Source: Ligilactobacillus cholophilus (GTDB lineage: Bacteria > Bacillota > Bacilli > Lactobacillales > Lactobacillaceae). Taken from it: a DNA stretch of 64,000 nt. The DNA lies in assembly GCF_030389495.1 (NCBI RefSeq), contig NZ_CP127832.1, forward strand, positions 992,001 through 1,056,000. The letters are read 5' to 3'. The translations under genes were made by a program, and so were the position numbers. A model generated the notes under the pieces. That model did not search any database. It saw nothing but the letters and a program-made list of their open reading frames with translations, and had not been told where the DNA came from. Of this stretch, positions 4,142 through 32,795 are shown piece by piece (the stretch's first letter is position 1; each line of letters starts with the position of its first letter).

Positions 4142-4252
4142 AAATACTTAATTCCTTCAATATGTACTACGTAAAAAAACACGCATATATATATTTAACC
4201 ACTAAATTAATAAATTTAATTTTAAATTTTTATTACAATATTTTTGGGCATA

Positions 4253-4282
4253 AAAAAAGCTGCAAGTATTGCAGCTTTTTTA
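4253..4282. terminator. terminator downstream of galU
   Basis: Perfect stem (arms AAAAAAGCTGCAA and TTGCAGCTTTTTT) with a GTA loop directly after the galU stop on the minus strand, with a T-run on both strands. Confidence 0.85.
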
Positions 4283-5155
4283 TTAATTAAGTTTCTTTGC
4301 TAACTCTTTAATATAATCTTTTAACTCAGCACTTACTTCTGGATGTTTCAATCCAAATTGAATTGAAGTCTTTAAGTAACCAAATTTGTAACCAACATCG
4401 AAACGTTCGCCTTTAAATTCATGTGCAAAAACACGTTGAATTTGGTTTAAACGATCAATAGCGTCAGTTAATTGAATTTCATTACCTGCACCTGGTTTTT
4501 GTGTTTCTAACATATCAAAAATTTCAGGTGTTAATAAATAACGACCAATAATAGCTAAATCTGATGGAGCTTTATCTACATCTGGTTTTTCTACAAATTG
4601 GTTAACATCAAACAATCCTGGTTTTGTTTCTGTTACAGGATCAATAATTCCATATTTATCAACTTCATCATGAGGAACTTTCATTACAGCAAGTGTTGAT
4701 GCATGTGTTTCTTCATAACGATCAATTAATTGCTTAGTCAATGGAACCTTATCTTCCATAATGTCGTCACCTAACATAACAACAAATGGTTCGTTACCAA
4801 CAAAATCTTTTGCCATTAATACCGCATCACCTAAACCACGTGGATGTGATTGACGAATAAAGTATAAATTAATATCTGTTGTTTGTTGAACTAATTTCAA
4901 TAAACCTGTTTTACCCTTTGCAGTAAGATTTTGTTCTAATTCTGGAACAGAGTCAAAGTGATCTTCAATTGGTCGCTTACCCTTTCCAGTTACTACTAAA
5001 ATGTCTTCAATTCCTGATTTACGAGCTTCTTCAACAATATATTGAATTGTTGGTTTATCAATAATCGGGAACATTTCCTTAGCTAAAGCCTTTGTAGCTG
5101 GTAAAAAACGAGTACCTAAACCAGCCGCAGGAATAACAGCTTTTCTAACTTTCAT
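4283..5155 (-). CDS. galU: UTP-glucose-1-phosphate uridylyltransferase
   Basis: Makes UDP-glucose from UTP and glucose-1-phosphate for the Leloir pathway, glycolipid/LTA anchor and exopolysaccharide synthesis. The 290-residue length is normal. The nucleotidyltransferase signature [19 protein letters not shown] sits at residues 10-28, followed by the family motifs [24 protein letters not shown] and the C-terminal [19 protein letters not shown]. Start ATG with AAGGGG 7 bases upstream. Single-gene unit: about 230 bases separate it from map and a terminator follows. It supplies precursor for the surface-glycan genes nearby (GT2/YfhO, UDP-GlcNAc epimerase). Confidence 0.96.
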
Positions 5156-5382
5156 CGTTATACCCCTTATCTATAATGGTATATATCTTTCAAAAAGATA
5201 ATTAATATCTAGACTAATTATATCAGTAAATCACCTTTTTACAAGTTAATTCTAAACTTAATGTAAGGATTTACTTATTTAAACAAAGCTAAATCCGTAA
5301 ATTAATTTTTATTTACATTATATAATTCTTTTTATTACAAACATTCAGGCTTTTTACCTAGTAAACAATTAGCTCTAAACCC

Positions 5383-6177
5383 TTATTTAAATTTGTATAA
5401 ATATTTTTCGTCCATAGATGGATCTTGTGAAGTTAAAATTTTAGGACCATCTTTTGTAATTACAATTGTATGTTCATATTGACATGATAACCCACCATCT
5501 GCAGTTCTTGCAGTCCATCCATTAGGATCATCCATTACAGATTGCCATGTTCCTGTATTGATCATAGGTTCAATTGTAATTGTCATTCCTTCGCGTAATC
5601 TAATCCCCTTACCTTTTTCGCCATAATGAGGGACATTAGGTGATTCATGCATTGTAGGTCCAATTCCGTGCCCAACAAATTCACGTACATCACCAAAACC
5701 ATTTAGATCTTCAGTATAATGTTGGATAGCGTAACCAATATCTCCTAATCGATTCCCAACTTGAGCTTGATCAATTCCTAAGTATAAAGCTTTTTTGGTT
5801 ACTTCCATTAAATGTTCAACTTCTTCTGAAGGCTTTCCAACTGCGTAACTCCAACAAGAATCACTCATTGCACCGTGGTAATTAACTACAGTATCAACTT
5901 TTACAAGATCTCCTTCTTTGAAAATTAAATCTTTACGTGGAAATGCATGACAAATTTCATCATTTACACTTACGCATGTTGCATATTTGTAGCCTTCAAA
6001 TCCAATTTGCTCTGGAATTGCATCATGCTCTTTAAAATATTTACATGCAAATTTTTCAACTTCCCAACTTGAAACACCTGGCTTGATAATATCACGCAAA
6101 CCAATATGCATCCCTGCTAAAATTGCACCCGAAATTGCCATTTCTTTAATTTCTCGTGGTGATTTTAGAGTAATCAT
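5383..6177 (-). CDS. map: type I methionine aminopeptidase
   Basis: Removes the initiator methionine from nascent proteins in the cytoplasm; dinuclear metal enzyme. The 264 residues contain all metal ligands: Asp in VDTVVNYHG, Asp in AMSDSCW, His in EFVGHGIG, Glu in TITIEPMI and Glu in CQYEHTIVI. A small insertion before the last ligand (MDDPNGWTARTADGGLS) is typical of lactobacillal forms. Start ATG preceded by AGGAGG about 10 bases upstream. It is divergent from the flavodoxin gene; the 144-base gap holds both promoters. Confidence 0.95.
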   Translation of the reverse strand: MITLKSPREIKEMAISGAILAGMHIGLRDIIKPGVSSWEVEKFACKYFKEHDAIPEQIGFEGYKYATCVSVNDEICHAFPRKDLIFKEGDLVKVDTVVNYHGAMSDSCWSYAVGKPSEEVEHLMEVTKKALYLGIDQAQVGNRLGDIGYAIQHYTEDLNGFGDVREFVGHGIGPTMHESPNVPHYGEKGKGIRLREGMTITIEPMINTGTWQSVMDDPNGWTARTADGGLSCQYEHTIVITKDGPKILTSQDPSMDEKYLYKFK

Positions 6178-6282
6178 TTATATTATTCCTCCTAATAAAT
6201 TTATATCGTTACTATTATACCCTAAAACATTGATATTAGTTAAATTCCTACGATTTTTGTATTCTCACGCTTAAAAATTTGA

Positions 6283-6288
6283 TATAAT
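6283..6288 (+). promoter_or_regulatory. extended -10 promoter for the flavodoxin gene
   Basis: TGA-TATAAT (extended -10) about 33 bases before the TTG start. The -35 is weak or absent. The initial transcribed sequence resembles that of recX (TTTTTTGAGAAAGG). Confidence 0.6.
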
Positions 6289-6321
6289 AGTAACGAATTT
6301 TTTGAGAAAGGAGCAATTACT

Positions 6322-6774
6322 TTGGCAAAAGCTGAAATTGTTTTCGCAACAATCACCGGCAATAACGAGGATATTGCTGATATCATTGCGGAAAATCTTG
6401 AAGATAAAGGAATCGACGTTCAAGTAGATGAAATTTCACAAGCAGATGTTAGTGATTTTGAAGATGCCGATCTTTGCATTGTATGTCCATATACATATGA
6501 TGAAGGAAATCTTCCAGATGAAGGAATGGACTTTTTTGAAGATCTTAAAGAAGTAGATTTAACTAATAAAATTTATGGCGTTGCAGGTTCAGGGGATACT
6601 TTTTATGGCGAATATTACTGTACGGCAGTAGATGAATTTAGTCGTGTATTGCGTGAAGCAGGAGCTACTCAAGGAACTAAAGATGTAAAAATAAATCTTT
6701 CTCCTGATACGGATGAAGATATTGCAACTTTAGATACTTTTGCAGATGAATTAGTTTCAAAATTGGAGGAATAA
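6322..6774 (+). CDS. flavodoxin
   Basis: Small acidic FMN electron carrier, 150 residues. The N-terminal phosphate-binding loop reads VFATITGNNEDIAD (T-x-T-G-N-x-E type); the FMN-contacting segments are CPYTYDEGNLPDEG and GVAGSGDTFYGEYYCTAVDEF. Translation starts at TTG with a strong AAAGGAG site (6307-6313); no in-frame ATG upstream fits. It lies 6 bases before the glycosyltransferase gene, so the two share a transcript. The redox partner is not evident from the neighbours. Confidence 0.93.
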   Translation: MAKAEIVFATITGNNEDIADIIAENLEDKGIDVQVDEISQADVSDFEDADLCIVCPYTYDEGNLPDEGMDFFEDLKEVDLTNKIYGVAGSGDTFYGEYYCTAVDEFSRVLREAGATQGTKDVKINLSPDTDEDIATLDTFADELVSKLEE

Positions 6775-6780
6775 TTTATT

Positions 6781-7713
6781 ATGTCAAAAACCTTATCCAT
6801 TATTGTCCCTTGTTATTGTGAAGAAGAATCAATTCCATTATTTTATGAAGCAGTTGAAAAAGTTGCTCCAAAATTAAAAGATATTGATTTAGAGTATTGG
6901 TTTATTGATGACGGTTCAAAGGACAATACTTTAAAAGAACTTAGAGCTTTACAAGCTAAAGACCCTGATCATGTCCACTATGCTTCATTTTCAAGAAATT
7001 TTGGTAAAGAAGCTGGCCTATACTGTGGATTACAACAAGCTACTGGCGATTATGTAGCTGTAATGGATGTTGATCTACAAGATCCTCCAGAATTATTACC
7101 TAAAATGTTGAGTTATATTGAAAGTGGCGATTATGATTGTGTTGGTACACGCCGTGTAAATCGGAAAGGTGAACCACCAATTCGTTCATTTTTCGCTCAC
7201 ATGTTTTACAAATTAATTAATAAAATTTCAGATACAGAAATTGTTGATGGGGCGCGCGATTATCGCTTAATGACACGTCAAATGGTAGATGCAATTCTTT
7301 CAATGAGCGAATATAACCGCTTTTCTAAGGGAATCTTTAGTTGGGTAGGTTTTCGAACAAAATATTTAGAATATACTAATCAAGAACGTGTAGCAGGTAA
7401 AACTAGTTGGAACTTTTGGAGTTTATTAAAGTATTCAATCGATGGTATTGTTTCATTTTCACAAACTCCACTTGATATTGCTTCATATGTTGGATTATTT
7501 TCTTCAGTTTGCTCTGTAATTGGTATCATTTTTGTTATTATTCGCAAGCTTTTATATGGTGGCTCTGCATTTGGATGGGCATCACTTGTATGTATCTTCC
7601 TATTTATTGGTGGTATTCAACTTCTATGTTTAGGTATTGTTGGTAAATATATTGGAAAAATATTTATGGAAGTAAAAAAACGTCCTGTCTACATTTTAAA
7701 AGAGAAAAAATAA
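6781..7713 (+). CDS. family 2 glycosyltransferase, polyprenyl-phosphate type (GtrB/CsbB-like)
   Basis: Predicted to transfer a sugar (glucose or GlcNAc) from a UDP-sugar to undecaprenyl phosphate on the cytoplasmic face. The 310 residues have an N-terminal GT-A domain (1-220) with DDGSKDNT, the metal-binding DVDLQDPPE motif and the acceptor-site segment NQERVAGKTSWNFW, followed by two C-terminal membrane helices (about 235-260 and 270-295) as in GtrB, CsbB and YkoT. The next gene encodes a YfhO-like protein; in Bacillus and Listeria, CsbB-type and YfhO proteins cooperate in lipoteichoic acid glycosylation. The sugar is not predictable from sequence. Start ATG directly follows the flavodoxin stop. 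Confidence 0.9.
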   Translation: MSKTLSIIVPCYCEEESIPLFYEAVEKVAPKLKDIDLEYWFIDDGSKDNTLKELRALQAKDPDHVHYASFSRNFGKEAGLYCGLQQATGDYVAVMDVDLQDPPELLPKMLSYIESGDYDCVGTRRVNRKGEPPIRSFFAHMFYKLINKISDTEIVDGARDYRLMTRQMVDAILSMSEYNRFSKGIFSWVGFRTKYLEYTNQERVAGKTSWNFWSLLKYSIDGIVSFSQTPLDIASYVGLFSSVCSVIGIIFVIIRKLLYGGSAFGWASLVCIFLFIGGIQLLCLGIVGKYIGKIFMEVKKRPVYILKEKK

Positions 7714-25084: not shown

Positions 25085-25181
25085 ACACATCCTTCTTTCT
25101 TAATACTTCCAATGCCTAAAATATTTGCCATATCCTAATTTATATTACCAAAAAACTTAAGTTTTGAAAATTAAGTCCAAA

Positions 25182-25189
25182 TAATTTTT
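25182..25189 (+). repeat. target-site duplication, left copy
   Basis: TAATTTTT, identical to bases 29363-29370 at the other end of the transposon. Eight bases is the duplication length known for the IS1595 family. Confidence 0.93.
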
Positions 25190-25215
25190 GGAAATTATAT
25201 ACAAGTTTACACAAA
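25190..25215 (+). repeat. left terminal inverted repeat
   Basis: Begins GGAAATTATATA and ends TTTACACAAA; matches the reverse complement of 29337-29362 at 21 of 26 positions. Confidence 0.9.
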
Positions 25216-25217
25216 TT

Positions 25218-25255
25218 AGAGCTAACCTTTTGAAGTGATTAGCTCTTTTATTTTA
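25218..25255. terminator. terminator at the left end of the transposon
   Basis: Stem AGAGCTAA / TTAGCTCT with a 13-base loop followed by a T-rich tract. Placed just inside the left repeat and before the transposase promoter, where it would stop read-through from flanking DNA into the transposase. Confidence 0.72.
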
Positions 25256-25273
25256 TAATCATTCATACTATAA

Positions 25274-25302
25274 TTACACTATTTTTATTAATGTGATATA
25301 AT
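25274..25302 (+). promoter_or_regulatory. promoter of the transposon operon
   Basis: TTACAC (25274-25279), 17-base spacer, TATAAT (25297-25302) with TG one base upstream of the -10. The transposase ATG follows 25 bases later with GAGGTG as ribosome-binding site. Confidence 0.8.
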
Positions 25303-25327
25303 TAAAGTATAGAAATGAGGTGTCAAC

Positions 25328-26230
25328 ATGCGCAATTTCAATTCCTTATTCGATTTAGAACAAGCCTTTCCCAACGAACAAACTTGTATTGATTATTTAA
25401 CTGAAATGCGCTGGCATGGTTATGTTACCAGTCCATTTATTGAAGGCTCAAAAGTATACAAATGCAAAAACAATCGTTATCGTTGCAAAGAAAGTGGAAA
25501 GTATTTCAATGTTAAAACAGGGACTTTGTTTGATAATACTAAAATTCCATTGCGTAAGTGGTTTATGGCGATTTGGCTCGTAACTTCTAATAAGAAAGGT
25601 ATCTCATCTGCACAACTAGCACGAGATATTGATGTTACTCAAAAGACAGCATGGTTTATGTTGCAACGAATTCGTAAGTGTTTTAACAGCAAGAATAATA
25701 ATCATCTAGATGGAGATGTCGAAGTTGACGAAACTTATATCGGTGGTAAAAATAAGAATCGCCACGCTGGTAAAAAAGTTAAAAATTCTCAAGGACGGTC
25801 TATTCAAGATAAAATACCAATTGTGGGTTTAATCCAACGGAATGGTAAAGTTACCGCTCATAAAGTGGATAATACAAACACAACAACCTTAACGAATGAA
25901 ATCGTATCATATGTTAAACAAACAGCGAAATTATATACTGATGAATGGTTAGGTTATAACAAAGTTTCTAACTTGTACTCGCATCATATTATTCACCATA
26001 ACGCCAAAGAATTTGTAAATGGTAAAACATTTACGAATACGATTGAGGGCTTTTGGTCGATTTTAAAACGTGGTATTTTAGGAATTTACCATTTTTGGTC
26101 TAAAAAGCATATGCAGATGTACGTTGATGAGTTTGTGTTTCGTTACAATACCCGTGATTTATCAGACCACGACCGTTTTGACTCCTTATTACAATCATGT
26201 ACAATACGCGGACAACTTACGAGGACTTAA
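25328..26230 (+). CDS. tnp: IS1595-family transposase
   Basis: 300-residue DDE-type transposase that cuts and joins the element ends. N-terminal region (about 1-75) corresponds to the zinc-ribbon domain of the family (RYRC...YFNVKTGTLFDNTKIPLRKWFMAIW) but most of the paired cysteines are missing (the positions read TSPFIEGS and RCKESGKYF). Next a helix-turn-helix part (ISSAQLARDIDVTQKTAWFMLQR), then the catalytic domain: first Asp in DVEVDETYIGGK, second in LYTDEWLGYN, and the third acidic position in NTIEGFWSILKRG. Full length, no frameshift, so probably active. Stops 3 bases before the next gene. Confidence 0.94.
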   Translation: MRNFNSLFDLEQAFPNEQTCIDYLTEMRWHGYVTSPFIEGSKVYKCKNNRYRCKESGKYFNVKTGTLFDNTKIPLRKWFMAIWLVTSNKKGISSAQLARDIDVTQKTAWFMLQRIRKCFNSKNNNHLDGDVEVDETYIGGKNKNRHAGKKVKNSQGRSIQDKIPIVGLIQRNGKVTAHKVDNTNTTTLTNEIVSYVKQTAKLYTDEWLGYNKVSNLYSHHIIHHNAKEFVNGKTFTNTIEGFWSILKRGILGIYHFWSKKHMQMYVDEFVFRYNTRDLSDHDRFDSLLQSCTIRGQLTRT

Positions 26231-26233
26231 TTT

Positions 26234-26665
26234 ATGGATAAACAAGCAATTATTAATGAACTAACACGGACTTTTATTCGTGATAAAGACCTAAATAAAT
26301 TAATGGAGAATAGTAACCAAGAAACATTGATAGAAATGTACCAAGGACTATTTAATCTATGGAATGAAGAATTATCAATAAATATCATTTATCAAAAAAA
26401 ATCGTTACTTTTAGTCTTTTCGCAAGCGGTTTTTACTGATATTATTAATAATAAACAAGGCCTTAATAAAAGGATAATTGAAATTACGACTTTATTATCG
26501 TTAAGTAACAACGAAAAGGAGTTTAGAATGATGTTTGAAAGGAAGTTCAAGCAAGCACTCCCACGCTTAACCCCGTTATTTAATGAAAATTATGAGGATA
26601 ATTTATCCGATTTTGATAAGAAGATGAGGAAGGCTTTAAATTTTAACTGGAAAGAGGGAAAATAA
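26234..26665 (+). CDS. unknown 143-aa passenger protein of the transposon
   Basis: Not recognised. A soluble, largely helical, charged protein without signal peptide or membrane helix; segments include NELTRTFIRDKDLNKLME, a more hydrophobic stretch KKSLLLVFSQAVFTDII and a C-terminal FERKFKQALPRLTPLFNE. Its start lies 3 bases after the transposase stop, and the sequence encoding its last residues (KEGK) supplies the AAAGAGGG ribosome-binding site of the leader ORF, so it is translationally linked on both sides. It could assist transposition or belong to the methyltransferase system; nothing in the sequence decides. Confidence 0.8.
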   Translation: MDKQAIINELTRTFIRDKDLNKLMENSNQETLIEMYQGLFNLWNEELSINIIYQKKSLLLVFSQAVFTDIINNKQGLNKRIIEITTLLSLSNNEKEFRMMFERKFKQALPRLTPLFNENYEDNLSDFDKKMRKALNFNWKEGK

Positions 26666-26667
26666 CG

Positions 26668-26736
26668 ATGATTAATCACTCACTCACTCACTCACTCACT
26701 CACTCACTCACTCACTCACTCACTCACTCACGTTGA
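26668..26736 (+). CDS. phase-variable leader ORF (early stop at 14 repeats; open to 26866 at 13 or 16)
   Basis: ATG at 26668 with AAAGAGGG nine bases upstream. In this sequence it encodes Met-Ile-Asn, four HSLT units and His-Ser-Arg, then TGA at 26734-26736. The frame shifts with repeat number: the frame entered with 13 or 16 copies of TCAC is open from GTT at 26732 through 43 further codons (VDYVGQRLFV... to ...IVGKAVA) and stops at TAG 26864-26866, one base before the methyltransferase ATG. The third frame stops at TAG 26742-26744. The downstream peptide resembles nothing I know; it may matter only because it is translated through the hairpin at 26773-26812. Existence of the open frame is seen; its regulatory role is inferred. 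Confidence 0.65.
   Translation: MINHSLTHSLTHSLTHSLTHSR
26676..26731 (+). repeat. tetranucleotide repeat, 14 perfect copies of TCAC
   Basis: 56 bases, no interruption, beginning eight bases into the leader ORF. Tetranucleotide tracts this long change copy number by slipped-strand mispairing; each step moves the reading frame by one. Copy numbers equal to 1 modulo 3 (13, 16) give the open leader; 14 and 15 give early stops. Confidence 0.97.
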
Positions 26737-26772
26737 TTATGTAGGTCAACGTTTATTTGTCAAGTCTTTTAA

Positions 26773-26819
26773 ACGATTATTAACATTAAATCTTGTTAAT
26801 GTTAATAATCGTATTTTTT
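26773..26819 (+). terminator. putative attenuator hairpin in the leader ORF
   Basis: Perfect 17-bp stem (ACGATTATTAACATTAA and its complement), 6-base loop ATCTTG, then A and six T. It has the shape of an intrinsic terminator, although the stem is AU-rich (three G-C pairs). It lies inside the leader ORF, downstream of the early stops and about 50 bases before the methyltransferase start. A ribosome reading the open phase would pass through it; a ribosome stopped at 26736 would not reach it. Confidence 0.75.
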
Positions 26820-26867
26820 ATGCTCTAAATAATATTTATGCTATTGTTGGAAAGGCGGTGGCATAGA

Positions 26868-28106
26868 ATGGGACGAAAAAATAATTTAGCCGCTGCTCAG
26901 AAATCAAAAAAAGATGAATTTTATACCATGTGGAGTGATATAGAACGTGAAATTAATGCGTATTTAGACTTTGATCCAAACGTATTCAAAAATAAAGTAA
27001 TTTTATTACCTTGTGACGATCCGTTTGAAAGTGATTTCTTCAAATATTTTGCTACAAAATTTAAAGATTTAGGAATTAAAAAGTTAATTGCTGTAAGTTA
27101 TGCAGGAAGTCCTTTTTGTAATACAGAACTTCAATTATCATTATTTGATTCTTTAGAAGAAAGCAAAAAAAAGGCATATAAAATAGTGATTAGTGATGCT
27201 ATTGATTACAATAATGACGGAATATATAACTTTGATGACATACGAGATTTATTAAAAGATGAACGTATTAAATTAGCTAATAATGAAAATTCTAAATGTC
27301 TGACAATTATTAATGGGAATGACAATTATCTTGCTGGTGATTTCCGATCAAAAGAGGTTACAAAATTAAGAGATGAAGCAGATATTATTGTAACTAATCC
27401 ACCTTTTAGTTTATTTAGAGAGTTTATTAAATGGATCGAAATCGATAAACGAAAATGTATTATATTCGCTAATAATAATGCCATTAGTTATAAAGAGGTT
27501 TTCCCGCTAATTAAAGAGAATAAAATTTGGCTTGGAGCTACAATTACTAATAAATCTTTGCATTTTAGAATTCCTTATAATTATGATAAATGGGATGAAA
27601 AATTTACGGATCAAATGAATGACGGTAATAAATACGCAAAAGTTAGTGGTATCTCAGTTTTTACGAATATTGACCATGGTAAACGACATGCCATAATTAA
27701 TTATATGACTGAGGCTGATAATTTAAGATTTAGCAAACATAAAGAAATTAGAGAATTGGGATATAGAAAATATGATAATTATGATGCAATAGAAGTCCCA
27801 TTTTCAGATGCTATTCCTAGTGACTATAATGGGATAATAGGAGTTCCTATTTCCTTCTTAGCTAATTACAATCCTAATCAATTTAGAATAGTAGGATTAA
27901 CTCAAAGTTGGACTAAACAAGCAAAAAAAATATATCCAAAGCAACTTCAAATTAGTGAAGATGGCTCAGAAAAAGAAGTAACTAAACTGAATGATGGACC
28001 CGCTATAAAAGTAGATAAAAAGCCTAACAAGGGGACATATTATACTGTAAACGGAAATATCTATATAAAAAAATACTCACGGATTCTAATCAAGAAAATA
28101 GATTAA
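26868..28106 (+). CDS. adenine-specific DNA methyltransferase, EcoRI family
   Basis: N6-adenine DNA methyltransferase. The N-terminal block NNLAAAQKSKKDEFYTMWSDIEREI followed by VILLPCDDPFESDFFKYFATKF is the signature of the M.EcoRI family, and the catalytic motif IV is NPPF (residues 177-180, in DIIVTNPPFSLFREFIKW). 412 residues, longer than M.EcoRI (326), with extra sequence in the C-terminal half. I choose ATG 26868, preceded by AAAGGCGGTGG; the ATG ten codons upstream (26838) has no ribosome-binding site. In the open repeat phase the leader stop lies one base before this ATG (TAG-A-ATG), so translation would be coupled. Recognition sequence unknown. Followed after 20 bases by the DUF262-HNH gene. 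The original EcoRI system has a different nuclease. Confidence 0.9.
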   Translation: MGRKNNLAAAQKSKKDEFYTMWSDIEREINAYLDFDPNVFKNKVILLPCDDPFESDFFKYFATKFKDLGIKKLIAVSYAGSPFCNTELQLSLFDSLEESKKKAYKIVISDAIDYNNDGIYNFDDIRDLLKDERIKLANNENSKCLTIINGNDNYLAGDFRSKEVTKLRDEADIIVTNPPFSLFREFIKWIEIDKRKCIIFANNNAISYKEVFPLIKENKIWLGATITNKSLHFRIPYNYDKWDEKFTDQMNDGNKYAKVSGISVFTNIDHGKRHAIINYMTEADNLRFSKHKEIRELGYRKYDNYDAIEVPFSDAIPSDYNGIIGVPISFLANYNPNQFRIVGLTQSWTKQAKKIYPKQLQISEDGSEKEVTKLNDGPAIKVDKKPNKGTYYTVNGNIYIKKYSRILIKKID

Positions 28107-28126
28107 CATAGGAGATTAGATTAACT

Positions 28127-29275
28127 ATGAAAACAGAATTTAAAAAATATACTATAAAAGAATTATTACAAGGTTTTCAATATAACGAACAGGAAGAAAA
28201 AGGTCTTTATGGATTAAATGGAAACTTAATTATACAACCAGAATATCAAAGAAATTATATATACGGAGACGACAACAGAGATGTTGCGGTCATAGATTCG
28301 TTAATGAAAAATTATCCGCTTGGATTAATGTATTTCAATAGAAATAACGATAGTAAATTGGAAGTATTGGATGGCCAACAACGTATAACGTCTATTGGTA
28401 GATTTGTTACTGGTAAATTATCTTATAACAAGAAAACGTACTCTGGGTTAAATCAAGAGCAAAAAAAGCAAATTGATAATTATGAGATTATAGTGTATTT
28501 ATGCGAAGGTTCTGAGAGTGAGATAAAAGAATGGTTTAAAACAATAAATATTCAAGGAGTTCCACTGAACAATCAAGAGCTATTAAATTCTGTTTATTCA
28601 GGTCCTTTTATTTCGATGGCTAGAGAAAAATTTAGTAATAGTAGAGAACCAGAATTACAAAAATGGCAAACATATATTAAGGGAAATCCTAAACGGCAGG
28701 AAATTTTACAGACTGCATTAAAGTGGATAAGCCATGATGAAATTGAAGAGTATATGTCTAAACATCGTAATGATAAAACTATTGATGATTTATCAACAAG
28801 GTTTACATCTATAATAGATTGGATAACTTCAACTTTTTTAAACATATATGATTGTATGAAACAAGTTAATTGGGGTGCTTTATATGATAAGTTTCATAAC
28901 AAGCCATATGATCTTACAAAATTAAATCAGAGAATTGACGATTTGATGCTTGACCCTGATATCACTAGACAATCAGGAATCTATGAGTTTGTTCTAGACA
29001 ATGAAGTTAATCCGAAACTTTTAAATATACGTAAATTCACCAAAACGGATATCAATACTTGTTATAGAAAGCAAACAAAGGAAGCGAAAGCACAAGGAAT
29101 ATCAAATTGCCCTCAATGTGTTAAGGATGTCGAATATAATCATGAAACAACTATATGGAAAATCAAAGAAATGGAGGGAGATCATATTATTCCGTGGTCT
29201 AAAGGGGGACGCACAGAACTAAAAAATTTAAAAATGCTGTGTAAACACCATAATAGGTTAAAATCAAACTATTAG
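28127..29275 (+). CDS. DUF262-HNH protein, putative restriction/effector nuclease
   Basis: 382 residues. The N-terminal DUF262 (ParB/Srx-like) domain shows IIQPEYQRNYIYG (about 36-47) and the hallmark DGQQR at 82-86, which in GmrS and SspE relatives belongs to a nucleotide-hydrolysing site. The C-terminus is an HNH nuclease: CPQC at about 328-331, GDHIIPWSKGG (catalytic His about 353), KNLKMLCKHHNR at the very end. It is the partner of the methyltransferase: same strand, 20-base gap, common terminator. It could be the restriction half of a restriction-modification pair or a nuclease that senses the modification state. Fold assignment is good; target is inference. Confidence 0.85.
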   Translation: MKTEFKKYTIKELLQGFQYNEQEEKGLYGLNGNLIIQPEYQRNYIYGDDNRDVAVIDSLMKNYPLGLMYFNRNNDSKLEVLDGQQRITSIGRFVTGKLSYNKKTYSGLNQEQKKQIDNYEIIVYLCEGSESEIKEWFKTINIQGVPLNNQELLNSVYSGPFISMAREKFSNSREPELQKWQTYIKGNPKRQEILQTALKWISHDEIEEYMSKHRNDKTIDDLSTRFTSIIDWITSTFLNIYDCMKQVNWGALYDKFHNKPYDLTKLNQRIDDLMLDPDITRQSGIYEFVLDNEVNPKLLNIRKFTKTDINTCYRKQTKEAKAQGISNCPQCVKDVEYNHETTIWKIKEMEGDHIIPWSKGGRTELKNLKMLCKHHNRLKSNY

Positions 29276-29289
29276 TCATATGAGCAATA

Positions 29290-29328
29290 AAATACCGAGA
29301 AAGCATAAATGATTTCTCGGTATTTTTT
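29290..29328 (+). terminator. terminator of the transposon operon
   Basis: Perfect 13-bp stem (AAATACCGAGAAA / TTTCTCGGTATTT), 10-base loop, then a T-run. It follows the DUF262-HNH stop and precedes the right terminal repeat. Confidence 0.9.
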
Positions 29329-29336
29329 ATAACATT

Positions 29337-29362
29337 TTTGTGTAAAGTAATATATAGTTCCC
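29337..29362 (-). repeat. right terminal inverted repeat
   Basis: Reverse complement begins GGGAACTATATA and ends TTTACACAAA; 21 of 26 positions match the left repeat. Confidence 0.9.
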
Positions 29363-29370
29363 TAATTTTT
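29363..29370 (+). repeat. target-site duplication, right copy
   Basis: TAATTTTT, exact copy of 25182-25189. Confidence 0.93.
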
Positions 29371-29387
29371 TAATATCAAAACATAAA

Positions 29388-29422
29388 TAAAAAACTTCAC
29401 ATAAACAAAATGTGAAGCTTTT
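29388..29422 (-). terminator. terminator of the DUF262-DUF1524 gene
   Basis: On the minus strand GCTTCACA / TGTGAAGT-type stem (seven perfect pairs, one mismatch, then A-U pairs) followed by seven T. Lies right after the minus-strand stop and just outside the transposon. Confidence 0.75.
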
Positions 29423-29430
29423 TATTTTAA

Positions 29431-31203
29431 TTACAAGAGTGATGCATCAAAACGCTGAACAACTTCATCTGAATCTTTTCCCATTATCGTTCGTCCTGTA
29501 GCCTGTTCTATTGCTGTAAGTAATTTTTTAGAACGATCAACTATAAAATCTTGAAAGTCATCTACACGAAGTAATTCAGAATTAATCCAATGTGTTTCTA
29601 AATATTCATTAAGCACATCTGAAGAAACTGCACCCTTTTTCTCAAGTTTTTCAAGATATTTAGATGGCGCTACACCTCCAATTTCCCGATTACTACTTGC
29701 AGAAATTGCTGTTTTATTAACAATGCTATTCCATTTAGTTTTATCATATCGATCAACGCAGTAATTTTTTGGAAAAATATGATGAATGTCTATTCGTTCA
29801 TTAGTATAAGTAGATAAATCCATTTCTTCACCAGAAATAAAATCCTTAGCATGATTTTTAAGTACTAACGCCATAATTCCTTTATATGCAGCTGATAATC
29901 GTGTTTGCATACTTAATAATCTAACTGGATTAAAATAAAAATCTGTAATTGTTTTAGGTAACTGTCCCTCATTCTCAATCCAGTTAATTACTTGAACAAC
30001 ATCATACACAAAGCGCGTCTCATTTGCAGAACCATATAACTCTCCAAATACGCCACACCAATACCACTGCTTAATTTTATCTTTAACTGTAGTAGTTCTT
30101 ATTTTAGATTCAAGTACAGTACAAATTACAGATAATGGAATCAATTGAGTACTATATGGTAAATCACGGCTATAAAAAATTCGTTCTTCCATTAGCAGTT
30201 TTTCTGCATTTTTAAATCCCTGTGTTAATTTATCTGCGTATTTTTTGTATTGATCTAATGTTAACTGAAGGACATCCTTTTTCTTACAACTTACTGTCCC
30301 TCCTGCTTCATAAGATGCAAGTAAAGTTAATGCTGTAAGAAAATCTGTTGAAGTAACAATATTAAGAATTTTACCTGAAAAACACTCATTTCGGCGATTT
30401 TCCCAATCTTTACGTAATTCAAAGTCATCCATTGCAAAAATTGCAGTTACAAGTTCAAATACAGTAAGTGATACTCCTCCAGTATTTACATTTTCAAAAA
30501 CTTGGCATACTGCTTCTTTAGGTGTATCTTTTTCTAATAAAATAATAGGCATTTTATAACTTTGAACTTGACTAATAACTTTTGTAAATAATTCTGTAAA
30601 TTGTTTAATTATGGTAGCATCATAATTATAGAAACCATAATAATCATTTTGCCAGGTTTGTTGTTCAGAAGTATTTAAAATGATATTTAATGGAAACATT
30701 TTTTGTTCAAATTCTTTTTCTTTAGAACTTAAATCTAAATCTATTTTTCTACCAAAATCAGATACTACTTTTTTAGTTTCTGGAACAGAAATAATTTTTT
30801 CTTCATCACTTGCAGAAGGATCAATTACCTTATCAATATTAAGATAATAATACCGTTTAATTTTCTTTCCCTTATCAGTCTGAGTGTTAACTGGTTTACT
30901 ACTATAAAGAGCATTATATAATGAAGTTAATCGTTGTTGTCCATCCAAAATAAGTTCATCTGGTTCAACATCTTGACTAATTCCTTCTACACCTTCCACT
31001 GGTTTATGTTTAAAATGAATACTTTCATTTCCATATTCTAAAAACATTGCAGCACCAACTGGGAATTTATTTATTACACTTAAAATCAAAGCTTTAATGC
31101 GATTGTCATCCCATACCCATCCTCTTTGAAAATCTGGTAACTGTGCTTTTCCTTCACTAATTTTTTTCATTAAATCCATCAAGGGACGATCATTTGTCTG
31201 CAT
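29431..31203 (-). CDS. DUF262-DUF1524 protein, GmrSD/SspE-like defence nuclease
   Basis: 590 residues with both halves of a GmrSD-type enzyme in one chain: N-terminal DUF262 with PDFQRGWVWDD (about 23-33) and DGQQR (87-91), a helical middle, and a C-terminal DUF1524 His-Me/HNH motif DIHHIFPKNYC (about 472-482) followed by NSIVNKTAISASSNREIGG. GmrSD cuts glucosylated hydroxymethylcytosine phage DNA; SspE senses phosphorothioate DNA. No dnd/ssp genes lie in this window, so a type IV, modification-dependent restriction role is most likely. It is outside the transposon, on the opposite strand, and shares only the DUF262 fold with the transposon protein. Monocistronic. Confidence 0.87.
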   Translation of the reverse strand: MQTNDRPLMDLMKKISEGKAQLPDFQRGWVWDDNRIKALILSVINKFPVGAAMFLEYGNESIHFKHKPVEGVEGISQDVEPDELILDGQQRLTSLYNALYSSKPVNTQTDKGKKIKRYYYLNIDKVIDPSASDEEKIISVPETKKVVSDFGRKIDLDLSSKEKEFEQKMFPLNIILNTSEQQTWQNDYYGFYNYDATIIKQFTELFTKVISQVQSYKMPIILLEKDTPKEAVCQVFENVNTGGVSLTVFELVTAIFAMDDFELRKDWENRRNECFSGKILNIVTSTDFLTALTLLASYEAGGTVSCKKKDVLQLTLDQYKKYADKLTQGFKNAEKLLMEERIFYSRDLPYSTQLIPLSVICTVLESKIRTTTVKDKIKQWYWCGVFGELYGSANETRFVYDVVQVINWIENEGQLPKTITDFYFNPVRLLSMQTRLSAAYKGIMALVLKNHAKDFISGEEMDLSTYTNERIDIHHIFPKNYCVDRYDKTKWNSIVNKTAISASSNREIGGVAPSKYLEKLEKKGAVSSDVLNEYLETHWINSELLRVDDFQDFIVDRSKKLLTAIEQATGRTIMGKDSDEVVQRFDASLL

Positions 31204-31373
31204 TTATTTTAATCCTTTCAAATAAAAATAATTTAATTACATAAGTTTTTATCTAAAAATGCTAATCATTATCATCTAAAATATCAAAATTAATTTTACT
31301 ATAATTTTTTTATGAATAAAAATCTCATCATACATCTTTATTCATTATTTTAAATTTATTTTATTAGTAAATA

Positions 31374-31412
31374 AATACACCTACTTTAAATTTATATTTT
31401 CGTAGGTGTATT
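31374..31412 (-). terminator. hairpin downstream of rlmCD copy 2
   Basis: 11-bp stem AATACACCTAC / GTAGGTGTATT with a 17-base AT-rich loop; the following minus-strand sequence is T-rich but not a clean T-run. The 230-base gap 31204-31433 holds this hairpin and presumably the promoter of the DUF262-DUF1524 gene, which I could not pinpoint. Confidence 0.6.
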
Positions 31413-31433
31413 AGCTTATAAATTATTAATATA

Positions 31434-32795
31434 TTAATTTTTATTTTCTAACACTGTAACACTTTCCACATGTGGAGTTTGTGGAAATTGATCCACAGGT
31501 TGAATTGGTTGAGTTACTTGATAACCTTCTTCCATAAATAATTGAATATCGCGAACTAAAGTTGCTGGATTACAGCTCACATATACAATTTTCTTAGGTT
31601 TCATTTCACACGCACTGTGGATTAAACTATTAGTCAGTCCCTTTCGAGGAGGATCAACCATTATTACATCTGGTTTTATACCTTTTTCACTCCATTTTTC
31701 CATCCATTCTTCAGCGTTTCCAACCTCAAATGTGACATTTGTAAGGTTATTAATCTTAGCATTTTGCTTAGCATCTTGAATTGCTTCAGGGACAATTTCT
31801 ACTCCATAAACTTTTTTAGCATGTTTTGCTAAATTTAGTGAAATTGTTCCAATTCCACAATATGCATCAATTACTGTTTCTTCACCAGTTAATCCAGCTT
31901 TGTGGATTGCTTGTTGATAAAGTTTTTCAGTTTGTTGTGGATTTACTTGATAAAATGAATGTGCTGAAATCTTAAATTTTAACCCATTCAATTCATCCAT
32001 AATAGTATCATTCCCAGCCAAAACAATATCTTGCTTTCCTAAAATTACATTTGTTTTTCGATTATTCACATTTTGAATCACACTTTTCACATCAGGACAC
32101 TTTTTCATGATTTCTTTAGCAATTTTATCCCCATGTGGAAAACTTTTACCGTTTGTTATAATAACAACCATCACTTCATGAGAATAATATCCACGTCGAA
32201 CCATTAAATGTCGGATTAATCCTTTACCTGTTTCTTCATCATATGCAGATAACTGATATTGATTTAATATTTCTAAAACGCTTTGTAAAACTTCATCGAT
32301 TCGCTTATCTTGAATCAAAAAGTGTTTGAGTGGCATAAAATGGTGGCTTCCCTTACGATAAAAACCTACTTCTAGTTTTCCATTAATTTTGCGCACAGGT
32401 ACTTGAGCTTTATTACGATAATGCAAAGGATTTTCCATTCCCAAAGTATTATTCACATTAAGAGCTTCAAGATGTGCTTTATTCAATAACTGTTTAATTT
32501 GGTTACGCTTAAAATTCAACTGTGCTTCATATTTCAAATGTCCTAAGGGAGTAATTCCATTCTGTTGATCAAGTGAATCATCCACACGATCTGCACTTTT
32601 GTTAATATATTCTAAAGCACGTGCATATCCAAAATTTTTCCGTGTTTTAACCACTACTGCATTTATTTTTTCACCAGGAAGTGCCCCAGCAATAAATAGT
32701 GGATAATTATTAACCTTAGCAACTCCCATACCTTCATATGTTAAATCTTCCACAGTTAAAACAATTTTTTGATTTTTTTTCACAGGTATTTGCAC
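31434..32795 (-). CDS. rlmCD: 23S rRNA (uracil-C5)-methyltransferase, RlmCD/RumA family (copy 2)
   Basis: Second m5U methyltransferase paralogue, 453 residues from a GTG start at 32795 (AAAGGAG eight bases upstream; the longer open frame has no site). TRAM domain at the N-terminus (KNQKIVLTVEDLTYEGMGVAKV), methyltransferase core with VIDAYCGIGTISLNL, VDPPRKGL and YVSCNPATLVRD. As in copy 1 the Fe-S cysteines are absent. It follows dagK on the minus strand, the position this gene occupies in many lactobacilli, so this copy is the more likely housekeeping RlmCD. A terminator-like hairpin (32839-32867) sits between it and dagK. Confidence 0.93.
   Translation of the reverse strand: MQIPVKKNQKIVLTVEDLTYEGMGVAKVNNYPLFIAGALPGEKINAVVVKTRKNFGYARALEYINKSADRVDDSLDQQNGITPLGHLKYEAQLNFKRNQIKQLLNKAHLEALNVNNTLGMENPLHYRNKAQVPVRKINGKLEVGFYRKGSHHFMPLKHFLIQDKRIDEVLQSVLEILNQYQLSAYDEETGKGLIRHLMVRRGYYSHEVMVVIITNGKSFPHGDKIAKEIMKKCPDVKSVIQNVNNRKTNVILGKQDIVLAGNDTIMDELNGLKFKISAHSFYQVNPQQTEKLYQQAIHKAGLTGEETVIDAYCGIGTISLNLAKHAKKVYGVEIVPEAIQDAKQNAKINNLTNVTFEVGNAEEWMEKWSEKGIKPDVIMVDPPRKGLTNSLIHSACEMKPKKIVYVSCNPATLVRDIQLFMEEGYQVTQPIQPVDQFPQTPHVESVTVLENKN

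Follow-up and report, generated by a model that had tools for sequence, protein, structure and literature searches.

The window analysed here, a 64,000-nucleotide stretch of Ligilactobacillus cholophilus DNA, carries a DNA methyltransferase gene and a putative nuclease gene behind a short leader open reading frame (ORF) that contains a tetranucleotide repeat. These lie between the ends of an IS1595-type transposon. ON denotes the frame in which the leader stays open to the methyltransferase start, and OFF the two others. The features are listed below.

25182..25189, no strand: left 8-bp target-site duplication TAATTTTT
25190..25215, forward: terminal inverted repeat at the left end of the IS1595-type transposon (inverted-repeat search)
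25328..26230, forward: IS1595-family transposase (PF12762, NF033547; Pfam/NCBIfam)
26234..26665, forward: 143-aa ORF, no Pfam or NCBIfam family (profile search)
26649..26658, forward: leader Shine-Dalgarno sequence GGAAAGAGGG (read from the sequence)
26668..26866, forward: leader ORF in its ON frame, ending at TAG 26864-26866 (copy-number script)
26676..26731, forward: (TCAC)14 simple sequence repeat, SSR (TRF and genome scan)
26731..26751, forward: hairpin 1, CGTTGA (26731-26736) with TCAACG (26746-26751), pairs covarying in members (covariation analysis)
26734..26744, forward: stops of the two OFF frames, TGA 26734-26736 and TAG 26742-26744 (copy-number script and member table)
26735..26764, forward: conserved block GATTATGTAGGTCAACGTTTATTTGTCAAG, with TTATTT (TTNTTT) at 26753-26758 and a predicted paused RNA 3' end near 26763 (pattern and model searches; motif geometry published)
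26736..26763, reverse: promoter-like sequence TTGACA-16-CATAAT, 11/12, pointing into the repeat (promoter scan)
26773..26819, forward: intrinsic-terminator-like hairpin, 17 perfect pairs at 26773-26812, -18.4 kcal/mol, T run at 26814-26819 (predicted, within the ON frame)
26849..26855, forward: methyltransferase Shine-Dalgarno sequence GGAAAGG, inside the leader (read from the sequence)
26868..28106, forward: EcoRI-type adenine methyltransferase (PF13651; PADLOC MTase_II; profile search)
28127..29275, forward: GmrSD_N (DUF262-type) plus HNH protein, PADLOC REase_II, probable restriction partner (profile search)
29337..29362, reverse: right terminal inverted repeat of the transposon (inverted-repeat search)
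29363..29370, no strand: right copy of the target-site duplication TAATTTTT

The methyltransferase matches PF13651 (6.9e-108) and PADLOC MTase_II (1.3e-84), and the GmrSD_N-HNH protein matches PADLOC REase_II (2.2e-83). Based on these profile matches, a PF13651 methyltransferase beside a type II nuclease match, the pair is probably a two-gene type II restriction-modification (R-M) system. Neither the downstream nuclease gene nor the transposon ends had been recognised in an earlier sequence-only reading of this DNA. The transposase, the terminal inverted repeats and the perfect 8-bp duplication TAATTTTT, of the length expected for IS1595 elements, delimit a complete-looking IS1595-type transposon of 4173 bp (25190-29362) that carries the type II R-M pair and its switch as passengers. 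A genome of the same species (G330) is without the region, window positions 25103-31446 being replaced there by 1179 bp (L141); this 6.3-kb variable island also contains a divergent 590-aa GmrSD_N gene (29431-31203). Relatives of the 143-aa ORF adjoin related transposases at three loci (L034, L027 and L149). One of these, L034 (G000:C1:934399-935776), is a second IS1595 transposase plus 143-aa ORF in the same genome as the window, with a different gene after it and without the leader repeat; its transposase match falls in two pieces.

The leader repeat is the sole period-4 array found by TRF in the 64 kb, and nowhere else in the 1.59-Mb genome are there five or more tandem TCAC units. The sequence-only reading had described 14 perfect copies beginning 8 nt after an ATG (26668) with a proper Shine-Dalgarno sequence, and TRF and the sequence agree with it. 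We then followed the frame with a script that alters copy number alone. With 14 copies, the sequenced state, the leader closes after 22 codons at TGA 26734-26736; with 15 it closes after 26 codons at TAG 26742-26744; and with 10, 13, 16 or 19 it stays open to TAG 26864-26866, which leaves a single base ahead of the methyltransferase ATG at 26868. The coordinates previously given for the ends at 14, 15 and 13 or 16 copies are thus borne out, as is the length of 64 codons at 13 copies; the same length had been assigned to 16 copies, where the leader has 68. In silico it also holds that one copy number in three is ON and that the sequenced state is OFF. Furthermore, the repeat had been placed in a separate upstream leader, unlike in classical mod genes, where the SSR lies within the methyltransferase reading frame; the leader does end at 26866, and the methyltransferase starts at 26868 in another frame.

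A DNA comparison with 26 genomes of the genus revealed that the sequence behind the repeat, including a conserved 30-nt block (26735-26764) that the earlier reading had not reported, recurs in other genomes, and the loci, once read, proved to have this layout with different repeat units. When up to 2 mismatches were allowed, the block pattern was found at 22 places in 18 of 397 family genomes. Fifteen of these were examined; the remaining seven are the window, five loci read before (L028, L032, L033, L036 and L038) and L046, whose 30-mer is identical to that of the non-member L045. The exact pattern occurs in 35 stretches of the GTDB collection, 13 of which are members with an SSR directly upstream; they come from Ligilactobacillus, Limosilactobacillus, Furfurilactobacillus, 'Gallilactobacillus' and Faecalicatena absiana, the last with two on a single contig. 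The other 22 were set aside as chance matches scoring at most 29.4 bits with model R1. Six more loci came from L. salivarius megaplasmids, where UCC118 and CECT 5713 are identical. A covariance model built from 22 members matched 39 of the 397 family genomes at E <=0.001, with 18 places in 14 genomes reaching at least 41.9 bits (every one was read, and 16 have an SSR) and the next place at 31.8 bits; we read three of the 30 places below 32 bits (L119, L120 and the site of L122, as L059), and none of the three is a member. Among 385 genomes of the order, the model found one member in another family (G617, which we take to be a Streptococcus, at 35.2 bits) as well as L147, which scores 33.7 bits and is not a member. 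Since score alone separates poorly the lowest member (L146, 35.2 bits) from the highest non-member (L147), membership near the cut-off was decided by the SSR.

After merging of duplicates the family comprises 28 loci, window included, 26 of which have an SSR; L136 and L135 have lost it. Seven repeat units are represented, up to rotation: TCAC, CAACA, AACTC, AACAG, TACAA, AAATC and the heptamer CAGCCTA. A phage or virus origin was set aside, the exact pattern having no match in viral_contigs and a 51-nt blastn none in phages. An Rfam search of window positions 26600-26950 gave no match above the gathering score.

Some occurrences stand apart. The F. absiana (Lachnospiraceae) contig JAEDAG010000009.1 has two switches 10.9 kb apart (L065 62 and L074 2941), and the first cargo region is identical at 777/800 positions to that of L. 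ruminis WC1T17, which suggests that, if the contig is correctly assigned, the region has probably crossed between orders recently. One genome (G314; L137, L138) of the genus of L. mucosae contains three switches, two of them 5.9 kb apart. In a Treponema metagenome-assembled genome (L081, about 6250-6790, reverse strand), an ATG precedes an ACGCCCA heptamer array, behind which comes a 30-mer that fits the pattern; the frame is open into the start of the next gene, the score is 19.0 bits, and a T-run terminator was not seen. We treat it as a lead, which could reflect chance, convergence or a distant member.

Two narrower origins of the leader were considered and rejected. It is not in general part of the IS1595 transposon: the window and L149 (G617) are the only loci where the transposase and the 143-aa ORF occur close to a leader, L034 has both genes without a leader, and L027 lies about 20 kb from the G022 leader on the same contig, so that the link is not general. 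Nor is it a property of EcoRI-type methyltransferases, as a tandem repeat precedes the gene in two (the window and G028) among 12 loci; these come from 12 of the 397 family genomes, L011 having only 414 nt upstream and L020 being a fragment, and the repeat check covered loci outside the 92 plasmid records.

The anatomy of the leader was tabulated for 25 loci (all but L103, L135 and L146). The ON frame reads GAT TAT at the block (AAT TAT in two) and stops 87-264 nt after the block start. In 24 of the 25, the other frames stop at -1 (TGA in 23, TAA in 2 of the members) and at +7 (TAG or TAA), the exception being L143, with its second stop at +13. One frame in three is ON because the block carries both OFF-frame stops right behind the repeat. 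In all 24 scored loci, no stop interrupts the ON frame up to 15 nt ahead of the gene, and both other frames contain stops there in 22 of 24. The probabilities of so open a frame in shuffled sequence are 0.007-0.55 per locus, with a summed log10 of -16.8, a sum that overstates independence because the members are related by descent. Among 21 loci whose start and tract can be read, 8 are ON, 8 are in the frame that stops at -1 and 5 in the one that stops at +7 (with L136, which has no SSR, in the count); L084, which contains Ns, and L096, L143 and L065, which lie at contig ends, were left out of it. L146 and L135, also outside these 21, are OFF. A simple search found no Shine-Dalgarno sequence at L080 and L074, and L085 is OFF from its ATG and would be ON from a TTG.

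Comparisons of close relatives show that copy number differs. L. salivarius UCC118 has 20 copies and ZLp4b 17, both OFF, with 796/800 identity downstream; G314 has 10 copies (ON) and L. mucosae 11 (OFF), with 712/794 downstream; and BNS11 has 21 units and SNK-6 12. The difference of three units between L102 and L104 leaves both in the same OFF frame. The copy-number differences bear on the idea that the repeat is long but effectively fixed, so that the locus is plainly OFF or is a decaying leader carried by a mobile element. The two members that have lost the SSR would fit such decay, but an SSR, whose unit changes, persists at 26 of 28 loci; together with the differences between close relatives this makes a fixed repeat very unlikely in our view.

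The block itself shows constraint at the level of nucleotides. Its valine codon is GTC in 25/25 members (16% usage in the cargo genes) and its lysine codon AAG in 24/25 (33% usage). Hairpin 1, which pairs the first OFF stop with sequence inside the block, has 82.5% paired cells compared with 69.9 in shuffles, 15 double-changed cells compared with 4.4, and a covariation score of 0.275 compared with 0.076, each with 0/500 shuffles as high. Two of the five covariation measures are unremarkable (3 both-side-changed pairs against 2.5 in shuffles, 293/500; 8 further pair types against 6.1, 66/500), and slid controls pair at 6.5-42%. RNAalifold predicts no consensus hairpin 1 from the same alignment, so the hairpin must be considered short and weak. 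In L139 and L140, the TGA has become TAA, which is still a stop although the stem pair is broken.

This pattern argues against the suggestion that the leader encodes a functional small protein, with the motif DY(L/V)xxxxLFVKxF, whose expression is tuned by the repeat. The peptide motif is recognisable in the tabulated members, but positions free to vary synonymously are invariant, in L146 the nucleotides are retained even though the reading frame changes past the hairpin (to QPFCQP), and the C-terminal parts differ widely. The synonymous-site invariance and the frame shift in L146 led us to set aside the leader peptide as a protein family, and we regard a protein function as extremely improbable.

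A different reading of the block is prompted by its complement. The promoter-like sequence on the reverse strand, at 11/12 of the consensus, is the best such site in the 3.3 kb scanned, and TTGACA is present in 24 of 25 members, with a 16-nt spacer in 18. The block could then act as a promoter on the opposite strand (TTGACA-16-NATAAT), directing transcription backwards across the repeat, with antisense RNA or polymerase collision repressing the leader. Promoter-like matches are common in the scanned region, however, given 25 sites there and 20.1 (sd 3.8) in shuffles. A spacer of 19 nt, as seen in seven of the 25 members, is too long for a usual sigma-A promoter, so that an antisense promoter is not a constant function of the block. 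Such a promoter would also leave the hairpin covariation, the two stops and the open ON frame unexplained. We consider it unlikely as the explanation of the block; antisense promoters may exist in some members and could coexist with attenuation.

Several features of the block resemble a site of RNA polymerase pausing. The NusG of the window genome carries N and T where its best PDB match, 8ehq chain G, presumably the B. subtilis protein, has N81/T82. TTNTTT is exact in 21 of 24 scored members and imperfect in L098, L096 and L101. The published account of B. subtilis NusG-dependent pausing places TTNTTT at -11 to -6 and a hairpin 11-12 nt upstream of the RNA 3' end, and describes the motif as necessary and not sufficient (PMC12288461). 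In the window, the hairpin, TTATTT and GTCAAG match this geometry, hairpin 1 ending 12 nt before the predicted RNA 3' end. The block hairpin and TTNTTT may thus form a NusG-dependent pause, as predicted from motif and spacing.

Between block and gene lies a 17-bp perfect inverted repeat followed by six T residues, within the ON frame, which the earlier reading had missed. None of 100 shuffles of the region gave a hairpin energy as good as its -18.4 kcal/mol. A terminator is predicted in 22 of the 25 members, in 21 with at most 2/100 shuffles as good and in L098 with 8/100, and is absent or poor in L102, L104 and L140. The arms change sequence yet keep pairing (20 members compared), and the T run lies 42-66 nt behind the block among members.

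The sequence-only reading had proposed that copy number couples translation into the methyltransferase. The arrangement on which it relied stands, in that the ON leader ends at the methyltransferase start; coupling as the main step probably does not, given the Shine-Dalgarno sequence of the methyltransferase itself (26849-26855) and the terminator-like hairpin in the leader. In its pure form, this explanation holds that the repeat frame decides whether ribosomes arrive and re-initiate at the methyltransferase start, with the hairpin incidental. It would account for the position of the leader stop, which is -14 to +3 nt from where the next gene begins in every one of the 24 scored members (L074, which has no gene following, was left out; L085, whose gene is cut after 14 codons, was scored), although the method, which sought starts within -25 to +60 and took the one nearest the leader stop in the longest frame, favours short distances. 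Pure coupling does not account for a terminator of changing sequence held in a similar place in 22/25 members or for a methyltransferase with its own Shine-Dalgarno sequence, and a nuclease with its own start would remain expressed in cells lacking the methyltransferase, a state expected to be harmful. We therefore find pure coupling improbable. Attenuation, with coupling in addition, fits better than coupling as the main step because the methyltransferase has its own Shine-Dalgarno sequence and the terminator-like hairpin lies in the leader.

We strongly favor the hypothesis that the locus is a phase-variable transcription attenuator switching a type II R-M operon, and consider it highly probable. 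Slippage in (TCAC)n would set the frame in which the ribosome exits the repeat. In two frames of three, the ribosome would meet the TGA or TAG in the block and leave the mRNA; the freed hairpin and T run would then terminate transcription, turning methyltransferase and nuclease both OFF, as expected with 14 copies. A ribosome in the third frame would translate through the terminator behind RNA polymerase and block folding of the terminator, giving the ON state; it would stop one base before the methyltransferase start and may re-initiate there. A NusG-dependent pause at the block would let the ribosome catch up with RNA polymerase. With the terminator in the leader, the nuclease gene downstream, presumably on the same transcript, would be silenced too. 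Unlike coupling alone, a terminator would thus silence methyltransferase and nuclease together, as a two-gene R-M system presumably needs. Some expression in the OFF state is possible if transcripts read through the terminator, because the methyltransferase has its own Shine-Dalgarno sequence.

The genes behind these leaders belong largely to R-M and related systems. Of 20 cargo proteins scanned with Pfam, some also with PADLOC, 16 match methyltransferase or helicase families. EcoRI-type methyltransferases follow the leader in the window and at L142, both with a GmrSD_N-HNH relative downstream; an MmeI-like protein at L072; type III mod proteins at L084, L138, L095 and L087; N6 methyltransferases of the type I or IIG kind at L143, L137 (twice), L099, L100, L101, L139 and L140; and a helicase matching PADLOC HKD+Snf2 at L080. 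L097 and L136 have only a weak type II methyltransferase match (PADLOC), and the L098 and L102 proteins have no family in Pfam, PADLOC or NCBIfam. The proteins of 890-892 aa behind the switches of L102/L104 (4210-6888 / 4195-6873) and L098 (1846-4515) are candidate new defence genes. Outside the 20 are L065, L096, L103 and L104, which have the same starts as scanned proteins or are identical to them, L085, which is cut, L074, which is interrupted, and L146 and L135, whose cargo shows by eye an NPPY motif and a mod-like start, respectively. The leader regions of L100, L101 and L139, in L. salivarius and G022, are much alike but stand before different cargo, with 281/294 identity upstream and 108/120 in the leader in both comparisons.

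The idea of an SSR leader with a terminator is not without precedent, being known from pil1 and pil3 of Streptococcus gallolyticus. As described by Danne et al. (2014, PMC3894217), the pil1 leader contains an SSR and has a premature terminator downstream, ribosomes translating longer leaders keep the terminator from acting, and pil3 fits the same scheme; the evidence cited for pil1 comprises start-codon, stop-codon and terminator mutants and chloramphenicol, and translation is needed for high expression. The window resembles this account in having an SSR (a pentanucleotide in pil1/pil3) in a short leader ORF with a Shine-Dalgarno sequence upstream of a gene, a predicted stem-loop terminator between repeat and gene that is translated in the ON frame only, and a leader length that would set read-through (PMC3894217). 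It differs in cargo, which is a pilus there, and in that two of three frames are high in the pil1/pil3 account and one is ON here (PMC3894217). Furthermore, the ON leader here ends on the gene start, unlike in pil1/pil3.

Tandem GCAGA arrays of at least five units occur in 3 of 197 genomes of the genus of G617, and we read four of them. The block is absent from all four loci, which are not necessarily pil1 or pil3 (the best model R1 score, 14.3 bits, comes from L165, where the match is on the opposite strand and away from the expected position). L164 (1095-1400, reverse strand; G814) has a GCAGA leader and, by eye, a hairpin and T run before a gene, a pil1-like layout without the block. At L165 the array runs into a mod-type gene, and L162 and L163 resemble glycosyltransferase and acyltransferase genes by eye. 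In S. suis modS, GAGCA repeats are described as joined to mod by a 119-bp linker (PMC6265453); GAGCA is a rotation of GCAGA. The published accounts of B. subtilis tlrB and vmlR combine a pause, a leader peptide and a terminator (PMC12288461, PMC9226507). There the input is antibiotic-driven ribosome stalling, unlike here, where it would be a slippage-set frame and the pause is only predicted (PMC12288461, PMC9226507).

As in type III mod genes, an SSR would drive random switching of DNA methyltransferases, and type III mod is among the cargos here; unlike in those genes, where the repeat lies in the mod frame, a separate leader and terminator stand before several R-M types. A REBASE survey reportedly covers SSR-bearing type III mod genes, and single mod members of our family may already be listed there. 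In Neisseria meningitidis siaD, an SSR frameshift causes Rho-mediated transcription termination, and in Haemophilus influenzae lex2A a small repeat-bearing gene precedes the target gene; we know of no dedicated intrinsic terminator or shared block in either. The literature matches listed contain no description of this layout in lactobacilli. Compared with the pil1 mechanism, what is most likely new is that the cargo consists of defence genes and that a block recurs which combines stops in two frames with a hairpin and TTNTTT similar to those of a NusG pause site.

We further propose, as a generalisation whose truth we judge evenly balanced, that these loci represent a portable frame-checking attenuator in Firmicutes: an SSR that keeps every frame open, a module of two-frame stops and a NusG pause hairpin, and a terminator translated in the third frame. 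It would have been recruited repeatedly before R-M and defence genes, turning nuclease and methyltransferase off together at the RNA level and so avoiding self-restriction; unit, terminator and cargo would turn over while the module stays.

If these proposals are correct, random ON/OFF switching of R-M operons recurs in gut lactobacilli and acts at the RNA level, through a regulatory module that recurs and is not a one-off repeat. Phase variation would then be linked to RNA polymerase pausing, and the ON/OFF state of defence systems could be predicted in general from sequence alone. The methylome and the transformability of such strains should shift with repeat number.
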